Positions 28,069 to 30,836 of a stretch of 64,000 nt of DNA are shown piece by piece. Below the pieces are notes generated by a model. That model did not search any database. It was not told where the DNA came from and saw only the letters and a list, made by a program, of their open reading frames with translations. A program made the position numbers and the translations under genes. The stretch lies in the NCBI GenBank assembly GCA_026985075.1, contig JALSQX010000020.1, forward strand, positions 62,001 to 126,000, read 5' to 3'. Positions within the stretch are counted from its first letter, which is position 1. Each line of letters begins with the position of its first letter. This stretch comes from Blastocatellia bacterium. GTDB taxonomy: Bacteria; Acidobacteriota; Blastocatellia; HR10; J050.

Positions 28069-28262
28069 AAAATATTCCTCCGAGACATCGTTCCCGACGA
28101 AAGCCCAATGAACAGGATATCGGTTGGTTCCTTCGGCGACAAGCAAACCCGCGATGACGACGACCTTCCTGACGGCCAAGGTTATCTGCTACACTTGAGC
28201 AGGGTCGTTCCTTGATCTGGAGGATCAGGCGGTAGATGAAGACCTCCCGTCCTGGAGAGGGG

Positions 28263-28676
28263 ATGATGGATTTTTCTGGAACGTGGATCGTCGTATCCAG
28301 CCACGAGCTGGACGAATCCTATTTGCAGGCGGACGCCGAACCTCTGGTGACGCTTCGTCAAGAGGGCGATCGCATCCATGGCGAATACCGGTTTGGTCGT
28401 CAGCGCGGCACCATCGAAGGTCGGCGGCACGGCGAGCATCGCGTCCTCTTTCATTTCCGCGAATCGGACGCTCTCGGTCAGATCGGCGGAACCGGTATGG
28501 CCACGCGGGAAGGTCGGCGTCTCATCATCACTCTGATGCATCCTAAAGGCGATGACATCACCCTGGAGTGCGAGCGACGCGGCGACGGCGGTGAATCAGC
28601 GGCTCACAAGGAGGCGGAGACACGCGCCAATGAGGGAGGAGCTTCGTCACCTTGCGACCCCGCTTGCCAGCGGTGA
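28263..28676 (+). CDS. Small hypothetical protein
   Basis: The roughly 137-residue protein begins MMDFSGTWIVVSSHELDESYL and reads as a short beta-rich domain (TLRQEGDRIHGEYRFG, RRLIITLMHP) followed by a low-complexity hydrophilic tail. The alternating pattern is lipocalin-like but I do not recognise the family. Two further in-frame ATGs exist (28236, 28266); I favour 28263 behind GGAGAGG. It is transcribed toward the NrdD-like gene, 39 bp away. Confidence 0.65.
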   Translation: MMDFSGTWIVVSSHELDESYLQADAEPLVTLRQEGDRIHGEYRFGRQRGTIEGRRHGEHRVLFHFRESDALGQIGGTGMATREGRRLIITLMHPKGDDITLECERRGDGGESAAHKEAETRANEGGASSPCDPACQR

Positions 28677-28715: not shown

Positions 28716-30836
28716 ATGGTCGAGGAGATGGAATCAAAGCCCGAAGAACACCAGTCGGCTGAAAGCCAACCGACATCAGAAGCGGCTGCCGGACCGGACG
28801 TCGATCTTCTGGTCCGAAGCTCGGATGAGCATGTCGCCCGATTCGACCCTCAACGCATCATCGACGCCCTCGTTCGCGAGGCGCGACTGGACGTCGATGT
28901 GGCGGCCAAGATCAGTCTGGAGATCAAACAACTCATCGCTCGATCGGGCATTCGCGCACTCAGCTCCTCCCTCATCCGCGAACTGGTGAGCGCGAAGCTG
29001 GTCGAGTATGGATTAGAGAGCGCCTATCGGGCCCATACGCGATTGGGCGTGCCGCTCTACGATGCCGAACGGATCATCTGCCAAGGCGCTCGCCACGCCA
29101 CCCTTCATCCGCACGGTCCCGAGGGAACCAGTCTCACCCTGGCCGAAGCGATCAAACGCGAGTACGCCATCCTCTCGGTGTTCTCTGAGAAAGTCGCCAA
29201 TGCTCACTTGACCGGTGACATTCACATCCAAGGGATCGGGACCATCGATCGCCCGCATAACCTGGTGAGTTCCATCGACTATCTCAAGCAACACGGCATT
29301 ACGCTGCCTCATCACTTTGCTTCGTCAAAGCCCGCGCGGTATCCCGATGTGCTCATCGCTCATCTGACGAAGTTCACCGCTGCTCTGCAGGGCTATGTGG
29401 TCGGCCCGATCGCTTGGGATAGCCTCAATTTCGCTCTGGCGCCCTTCCTGGAGGGGATGGACGAACGCGCGCTTCAACAACTGGCCCAATCGCTCATCTT
29501 CGAACTCTCGGCGCCGGCCATCGCGCGAGGCGGTCAATTCGTGGCCTGTCAGTTGCATTTGGATTGGGACGCGCCCGACTATCTGGCGACACGACCGGCT
29601 CTCGGACCCGGCGGCCAGGAGACGGGCAAGACTTATGGCGAATACACGGAGACCGCCCGGCGCTTCCTGCAGGCCATGTTTGAAGTCTTTCTTCACGGCG
29701 ATGCTGCCGGTCGCCCGTTTCTCTCTCCGCGCCCCATCTTACACATCACCGACCGATTCGCGACCACTCCCGGATTCCGAGCGTTTCTTGAGCTGGTGAG
29801 CCAGGTGGCCGTAGAAAAAGGGGGCGTGCGCATAGCCCTGGACCGCGAAGAATCCCGCAGCTTCCTCGCCCGGTTCGGCATCCCGTTCGATGCCGGATAT
29901 GCGGATGTCGCCACCTGGCGCTGGCGAAGTTCCGCTCTCCAATCGGTGGCGCTCAATCTTCCCCGCATTGGCTTTCAAGCCGAAGGAGAGCTGGTCCGCG
30001 TTCTTCAAGGAATAACCGAAGTGATGGAAGTGGCGGCTCAAGCTCATCTGGAGAAGCGCGTTTTCCTGGAGCGGCTGATGGCCATGGGTGAGAATGGACC
30101 GCTCTCGCTCCTGGTCATGCGTCGCTCCGAAGCTCAATTTCTCCGACTGGCCTGGACGACTTTCTTGATGTGTCCGGTGGGAATGGATGAACTCGTCTTT
30201 CACCTGACCGGAGAACACTTGCATGAGTCAGACCATGCTGTAGAGACCGCTTTGAAGCTCTTGGACCATCTGAGGCGTGAGATTCGACGTCTCAGCTCCA
30301 AGCACAAGGTGCGATTCGTCCTGGCCGAATCGCATGATGAAGTGACCCCTCATCGGCTGGCCCGCCAGGACCTGCGCTCGTCGTTTTCCGAACAGGCGGC
30401 GCGCTGCGTCTCCGGCGATCCCTCGACCACCGAGGCCTACTATACGAGCGGGCTCAAAGTGTTGCCGCGGGCGCCGGTCAGCGCCCTGGAGCGCACGCGC
30501 GTCGAAGGTCTGCTCCATGACTATGGGGTGTTCGATGCCCTGACGCCCATCTGGTTGAATAAGGAAGCACACGCCGTCGACCGGATGGCCGTGTTCATCT
30601 CTCAGGCCTTTTATCAAACTCACGGCGCGGCTTTACTCCCCGCCCCGGAATTCACGCTCTGTCTCAGTTGCGGGCGACCGTCGCGAGGCTTTCATTCGGC
30701 CTGCCCCCATTGCCAGTCTCAACGGCTCGACGGACTCGCCCTCAGCACCGACCACTTCAGCCGAACGTCAACCTGGAGCCAGGGATTATTGGCCCAACTG
30801 CGCGACCGCTATCGCGTCAATCAAGAGCTGGAATGA
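28716..30836 (+). CDS. NrdD-like anaerobic ribonucleotide reductase homologue without the radical glycine
   Basis: The 706-residue protein has an N-terminal ATP-cone (about 28-120) and a reductase body related to class III NrdD: RGGQFVACQLHLDWDAPDYL, GPGGQETGKTYGEY and RPILHITDRF match the branch with RGGQxxF...DW and GKTYGxY. At the C-terminus the zinc cysteines are kept (C649, C652, C663, C666). The short segment where the glycyl radical Gly-Tyr should stand reads LSTDHFSRTSTW, with Asp679 at the expected glycine. No nrdG lies nearby. It may be inactive, regulatory, or depend on a different radical; a sequence error is less likely because the frame is open to the end. Confidence 0.82.
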   Translation: MVEEMESKPEEHQSAESQPTSEAAAGPDVDLLVRSSDEHVARFDPQRIIDALVREARLDVDVAAKISLEIKQLIARSGIRALSSSLIRELVSAKLVEYGLESAYRAHTRLGVPLYDAERIICQGARHATLHPHGPEGTSLTLAEAIKREYAILSVFSEKVANAHLTGDIHIQGIGTIDRPHNLVSSIDYLKQHGITLPHHFASSKPARYPDVLIAHLTKFTAALQGYVVGPIAWDSLNFALAPFLEGMDERALQQLAQSLIFELSAPAIARGGQFVACQLHLDWDAPDYLATRPALGPGGQETGKTYGEYTETARRFLQAMFEVFLHGDAAGRPFLSPRPILHITDRFATTPGFRAFLELVSQVAVEKGGVRIALDREESRSFLARFGIPFDAGYADVATWRWRSSALQSVALNLPRIGFQAEGELVRVLQGITEVMEVAAQAHLEKRVFLERLMAMGENGPLSLLVMRRSEAQFLRLAWTTFLMCPVGMDELVFHLTGEHLHESDHAVETALKLLDHLRREIRRLSSKHKVRFVLAESHDEVTPHRLARQDLRSSFSEQAARCVSGDPSTTEAYYTSGLKVLPRAPVSALERTRVEGLLHDYGVFDALTPIWLNKEAHAVDRMAVFISQAFYQTHGAALLPAPEFTLCLSCGRPSRGFHSACPHCQSQRLDGLALSTDHFSRTSTWSQGLLAQLRDRYRVNQELE

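Follow-up and report, generated by a model that had tools for sequence, protein, structure and literature searches.

A conserved NrdD-like protein of the Blastocatellia that has lost the catalytic residues of class III ribonucleotide reductase

Introduction

The class III ribonucleotide reductase (RNR), NrdD, is an oxygen-sensitive enzyme that supplies the precursors of DNA. Structures of the NrdD of Prevotella copri assign the radical chemistry to C416, C171 and G711, binding of the substrate to an NxN motif and binding of the triphosphate to an HxHD motif, and in the ATP-cone of the same protein (PcNrdD) Lys7, Arg8 and Arg11, among other residues, contact the ligand, with K7 and R8 placed at the phosphates (PMC11226230). 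The finger-loop motif that holds the thiyl cysteine reads MGCR, MCCR or QCCR/A, the last being the motif of the NrdD3 type, and the cysteine of the first barrel strand is 92.6% conserved in NrdD (PMC9669993).

For three Chloracidobacterium species, a species description of January 2026 has the table entry “NrdD-like paralog (Class III), Present (no NrdG)” (PMC12816986). That paralog belongs to the same family as the protein described here, and the source gives its presence without NrdG only, with no account of the altered active site or of how widely the family occurs. Beyond this table we found nothing on NrdD pseudoenzymes in the literature searched, and no report in the open literature searched describes a dead RNR large chain that has been kept as a bacterial family. 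What is set out below, namely that all catalytic residues are lost, that the protein is conserved across the class and that new residues have become invariant, is new with respect to that literature.

The member of the family that we describe is encoded in the genome of a Blastocatellia bacterium (Acidobacteriota; assembly GCA_026985075.1), on a stretch of 64,000 nucleotides of contig JALSQX010000020.1 that was analyzed as a whole and that we call the window. An earlier note, made from the letters of this stretch, had described the gene product as an NrdD-like protein with aspartate in place of the radical glycine.

Results

Domain layout and fold of the NrdD-like protein

The gene lies at positions 28716..30836 of the window on the forward strand, as do all features of the protein given below, and its frame is open and full length (706 amino acids), as the earlier note had reported. 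The protein matches the Pfam NRDD model above its cut-off (219.7 bits, residues 132-698) and scores 181.6 bits with the NCBIfam NrdD equivalog TIGR02487, under the cut-off of 326.35 for that model. An ATP-cone (Pfam PF03477; residues 32-106, 28809..29033) scores 27.4 bits against a cut-off of 25.8, and 31.6 bits in a second search; it is followed by an RNR-type alpha/beta barrel (residues ~132-640, 29109..30635), which is defined by the NRDD match, the AlphaFold2 model and the Z scores to NrdD structures, and by a zinc site whose ligands C649, C652, C663 and C666 (30660..30713) are invariant. The protein ends in CLSCGRPSRGFHSACPHCQSQRLDGLALSTDHFSRTSTWSQGLLAQLRDR, so that both the zinc cysteines and the W...LRDR tail noticed earlier were found again. 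A 146-amino-acid ORF at 28236-28676 (+), 39 bases 5′ of the gene, has no Pfam match and is not conserved in the relatives.

The ATP-cone had also been called intact. The domain is indeed present, but “intact” is too strong a word, because its lid reads RSSDE (VRSSDE in place of V-x-K-R-D-G) and not KRDG. Across the family the lid has the form V-R-(R/S/Q/H)-S-D-(E/D), with S36 invariant in 30/30 members, and the altered lid with its fixed serine implies that the ligand preference of the cone may differ.

AlphaFold2, run with a 17-row alignment as input, gave a model with a mean pLDDT of 79.8, in which residues 109-147 (the linker and the former substrate flap) fall below 50, and the zinc domain and loop at the C terminus are predicted with confidence. 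In structural comparisons NrdDs come first (Foldseek E 3e-27; VIA-align Z 35.2 and 3.4 Å over 515 residues to 4u3e, the Thermotoga maritima NrdD; Z 34.2 to 8p2s and Z 33.2 to 9d3x), and the next best are other glycyl-radical enzymes at Z ~21. The NrdDs of P. copri, T. maritima and phage T4 share with this protein the fold, the domain order and a zinc-bound C-terminal domain (Z 30-35), but they are only 13-17% identical to it, and it has no equivalents of C416, C171, G711, Y712, N114/N116 or HxHD. An ATP-cone and a zinc site together also recall NrdR, the repressor that controls transcription of RNR genes; NrdR, however, is small, carries its zinc ribbon at the N terminus and has no barrel, whereas here the barrel stands between the cone and a C-terminal zinc site.

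The earlier note had pointed to the RGGQxxF branch of NrdD, and the closest true enzyme that we found is indeed a methanogen NrdD of the NrdD3 type, with RGGQ and a QCCA finger that fits the NrdD3 motif QCCR/A. This enzyme, from Methanomethylovorans hollandica (WP_015313916.1), and the 706-amino-acid protein have 24% identity over 98% (E 3e-46). The two have in common RGGQ, an N-x-PR strand, a GLH...CxxC zinc domain, a W-x(n)-L(R/K)DR tail and a first strand with (T/D)RP; the lid of the M. hollandica cone, RTTDGH, departs from KRDG as well. Found in M. hollandica only, and lost here, are the NENAN flap, HIHD, the first-strand cysteine, the QCCA finger and the VTGY glycyl loop.

Loss of the catalytic residues across the family

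For the comparison of individual residues we used as references the true NrdDs of the same phylum together with that of M. hollandica. In an alignment anchored on the tryptophan and the zinc cysteines, the former glycyl-radical loop (residues 674-690, 30735..30785) has D679 (30750-30752) at the place of the glycine, where the earlier note had put it, and H680 at the place of the tyrosine, whereas true NrdDs read SR(I/V)(V/T)GY...W. Among 17 aligned members position 679 is occupied by N (6), D (5), H (2), Q (2), Y (1) and L (1) and in none by glycine; in a set of 30 genomes it is N, D, Q, H, S, Y or L in 29 and glycine in one. No column of the 17-row alignment holds a conserved glycine elsewhere in the loop, which the earlier note had named as the finding that would overturn its reading, and most rows of the remote relatives described below still have Gly-Tyr there. 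The sole member with glycine at 679 (locus L125, genome G499) has the loop SSQGRYSRTSTW and no finger cysteine.

The missing glycine is one loss among several, the finger cysteines, the first-strand cysteine, NxN and HxHD being gone as well. The finger-loop region (residues 376-392, 29841..29891) is free of cysteine in this protein, which reads SFLARFGI where true NrdDs have MCCR (QCCA in M. hollandica), and none of the 30 members has a cysteine there. The first barrel strand, DRPHN (residues 178-182, 29247..29261), has N182 at the position of the true-NrdD cysteine, and no member tallied has a cysteine at the aligned position. The NxN flap occurs in 0/30 members (PHGPEGTS here), and HxHD, which has become HIQG in this protein (residues 170-173, 29223..29234), is kept in one of 30. 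In the 17-row alignment the only invariant cysteines are the four zinc ligands, which all members have.

With both the finger and the first-strand cysteines gone, the thiyl radical known from such enzymes cannot form, and the additional loss of the glycine means that the protein cannot work as a glycyl-radical ribonucleotide reductase. Two cysteines of the barrel region, C278 (29547-29549) and C486 (30171-30173), are found in 27/30 and 25/30 members, respectively, and might form a disulfide or a metal pair. As a replacement cysteine pair they were rejected: both are missing in the members of group f4, and C486 also in those of f7, so that no family-wide active site can lie there.

New invariant residues at the former active-site mouth

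The losses are matched by residues that the family alone has fixed. In the segment GPEGTSLTLAEAIKR (residues 134-148, 29115..29159), which lies at the site of the NxN substrate flap of true NrdDs, P135, T138, K147 and R148 are family-specific invariants. P135, T138, K147 and, on the first strand, D178 are fixed in 30-31 of 31 members and absent from seven true NrdDs, and in five remote relatives P135, K147 and D178 are present in all and T138 in four. D178 is the clearest case (31/31 members, 5/5 remote relatives, 0/7 true NrdDs). We had considered the whole DRP as a new motif, but M. hollandica NrdD has TRP, so that only D178 is new in it. In all, there are 24 positions at which the family has fixed, fully or almost so, a polar residue, Gly, Pro or Cys that none of the seven true NrdDs has, and several of these positions lie on or beside barrel strands.

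Since P135, T138, K147 and D178 stand at the former flap and on the first strand, it appears that the entrance to the old active site has been remade. That the remote relatives have these family-specific invariants in common with the family indicates, at the level of the alignments, remodelling and not decay.

Distribution, selection and ancestry

The gene is present in single copy in 34 of 162 Blastocatellia genomes, in six families and 19 of 53 genera, and in nine of the ten genomes of the order to which this bacterium belongs. Because 33 other species carry it, neither sequencing error nor chance can account for the altered residues. Frames are full length in nearly all family copies, and six pairs from three lineages gave dN/dS values of 0.04-0.15, the ATP-cone included (0.042 for this gene against the copy in the same genus). 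Such values in a gene kept as a single copy across the class are not those of a gene in decay.

In a maximum-likelihood tree the Blastocatellia family and two remote groups, f72 and f21, from the same phylum share one side of a branch with support 100/100, and M. hollandica is the nearest sequence on the opposite side; the exact joins are unsure, with long branches. The remote groups lack the cysteines too, and most of their rows still have the Gly-Tyr, which suggests that the cysteines were lost before the glycine. The f21 relatives (L070:9048-10829 and L071:8986-10755; 590-610 amino acids) miss about 100 residues of the barrel and keep the cone and the zinc site, and their genomes also encode a genuine NrdD beside the short relative. 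At L063:8905-12312 (-), in genome G227, the frame extends about 430 amino acids further upstream than in the relatives, with no Pfam match to the extension, which may be a fusion or a mere open frame. A viral origin was considered and rejected; no relative was found among viral contigs, and the phage matches are ordinary NrdD-like proteins with 22-25% identity.

Reductases, activase and neighborhood of the gene

The genome also encodes a complete class II reductase, NrdJ (PRK06556, 1470 bits, over the cut-off), which has no ATP-cone and whose gene lies on the same contig but beyond the window, ~62 kb upstream (G000:C20 ~26.2-29.1 kb; L074:2178-5147). No NrdB was found in this genome, and the DNA precursors of the organism come from class II NrdJ. 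A second, short NrdJ-type frame (~600 amino acids) is found on another contig (G000:C10; L075:1998-3821, -), with similar frames in four other genomes (G004, G005, G006 and G007); the two loci of such short genes that were checked have no NrdR boxes. The only ATP-cones found in this genome are those of NrdR and the NrdD-like protein; in Chloracidobacterium, NrdA carries a cone of its own.

We scored tandem NrdR box pairs on a scale on which background maxima are 12-19 per 430 bases and most class II nrdJ genes reach 23-25. The 5′ end of nrdJ in this genome has such a pair, CCACAAGATATTGTGA / AGCCATTATGTTGTGA, with a score of 24/32. The NrdD-like gene has none, the best pairs at 21 genes, taken from the family and from its remote relatives, scoring 14-18/32, as background windows do, and we rejected its membership in the NrdR regulon, the boxes being near nrdJ only.

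No gene for the activase NrdG, which is usually found next to that of a class III reductase, adjoins the NrdD-like gene. The best match to TIGR02491 (25.5 bits) falls within an unlinked frame of 603 amino acids, on a model whose cut-off is not reached by genuine NrdGs from other parts of the phylum either, and the glycyl-radical domain PF01228 was found in none of 21 genomes. At G047:C39:39187-40130, in a genome that has no NRDD gene, there are three NrdG-like matches (up to 73.7 bits), possibly a frame-broken or an unrelated activase. True NrdD can occur in split form, as in Cupriavidus necator pHG1 (L092:578-2951) and Bradyrhizobium pNK6c (L094:599-2813), where the main ORF stops at the zinc domain and the glycyl motif RVMGYHRPV is encoded by a small ORF of its own (66 amino acids in pHG1), which the activase follows. 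Such a separate glycyl domain was looked for and rejected here: the 66-amino-acid ORF, searched against eight genomes, gave a best E of 0.099, and 0.26 in this genome.

The NrdD-like gene has no neighbors conserved across the class; within the order, only a downstream gene for a 3D-domain protein is conserved. In the f72 genus (L068:2842-10989 and L069:1293-10889) the remote NrdD-like gene comes after comEC in the same orientation, and a divergent gene for an RNR large chain of 1,163 amino acids, with NrdR boxes, lies ~2.5 kb away; in L069 a methyltransferase frame is inserted.

Discussion

The description of the protein as a non-radical descendant of NrdD, first offered in the earlier note, is strongly supported, in that the thiyl and first-strand cysteines have been lost along with the glycine, with no linked NrdG and no replacement glycyl domain found. 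As far as its sequence can tell, the protein would qualify as a pseudoenzyme, the catalytic residues having been lost and the fold and purifying selection having persisted. A regulatory role, the other half of that suggestion, is plausible: the cone is kept, but its lid differs, and there is neither an NrdR box nor a conserved neighborhood.

We judge it about an even matter whether the 706-amino-acid protein, as a conserved non-catalytic descendant of an NrdD3-type class III reductase, acts as a nucleotide sensor or regulator. Such a protein would form a dimer, would bind a nucleotide, or another phosphate ligand of that kind, at the ATP-cone and possibly at the rebuilt mouth of the barrel too (K147, D178), and would pass its ligand state on to a partner protein. 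What counts against a sensor is that no regulatory target was found, that the neighborhood is not conserved, that NrdR boxes are absent, that the lid is without the K7/R8 pair and that one of the 30 members has the loop glycine. A broader statement, that an RNR scaffold without its radical machinery gave rise to a new functional family of Acidobacteriota with a rebuilt mouth (P-x-(G)-T...K and D-R-P), serving as a nucleotide sensor in trans or as a non-radical enzyme, we put forward tentatively, as a possibility only.

More doubtful is the idea that the barrel itself now serves as a novel enzyme of a non-radical type, or as a ligand site, that uses D178, K147, H281, H343, W234 and D235. The 24 family-specific positions, several of them at barrel strands, speak for such a site, as does the presence of P135, K147 and D178 in all five remote relatives and of T138 in four; yet H281 and H343 are not found in all of these relatives, the f21 proteins do without ~100 residues of the barrel, and no pathway genes adjoin the gene. 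It is unlikely, to our mind, that the protein acts in trans as an allosteric partner of the class II or class Ia reductase of the cell and confers ATP/dATP control in mixed complexes, which would be a narrower form of the sensor. The NrdJ of the order lacks an ATP-cone that the NrdD-like protein has, and the f72 relative lies ~2.5 kb from, and divergent to, an RNR large-chain gene; within the class, however, there is no such linkage and no shared NrdR box, and the family is missing from many members of the class that also have RNR large chains. Moreover, Chloracidobacterium NrdA has its own cone; this weakens the idea that the NrdD-like protein does nothing but provide a cone in trans, and implies that it is not simply that.

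The two remaining explanations are very improbable. A decaying gene that has survived by chance since anaerobic DNA precursor synthesis was lost might be patchy (34/162 genomes, 19/53 genera) and stand outside any operon, as this one does, but the reading is refuted by the selection data (dN/dS 0.04-0.15), along with the near-universal full-length frames and the family-wide new invariants. Least probable, and largely refuted, is a protein that is still a radical reductase, with its radical on another residue or from a separate glycyl-domain protein like that of Cupriavidus pHG1: split NrdDs with a 66-amino-acid glycyl ORF do exist, and the loop glycine is seen in remote relatives and one family member, but none of 30 members has a finger cysteine or NxN, no first-strand cysteine aligns, HxHD is kept in only one, and neither a glycyl ORF standing apart (best E 0.26 here) nor a Gly_radical domain nor a linked NrdG was found.

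Homology makes it easy to label such genes “anaerobic ribonucleoside-triphosphate reductase,” and metabolic models would then wrongly credit these bacteria with anaerobic DNA precursor synthesis by this route. If it is true that the NrdD-like protein senses nucleotides, it would add a layer of control to cells in which the class II reductase lacks an ATP-cone of its own.
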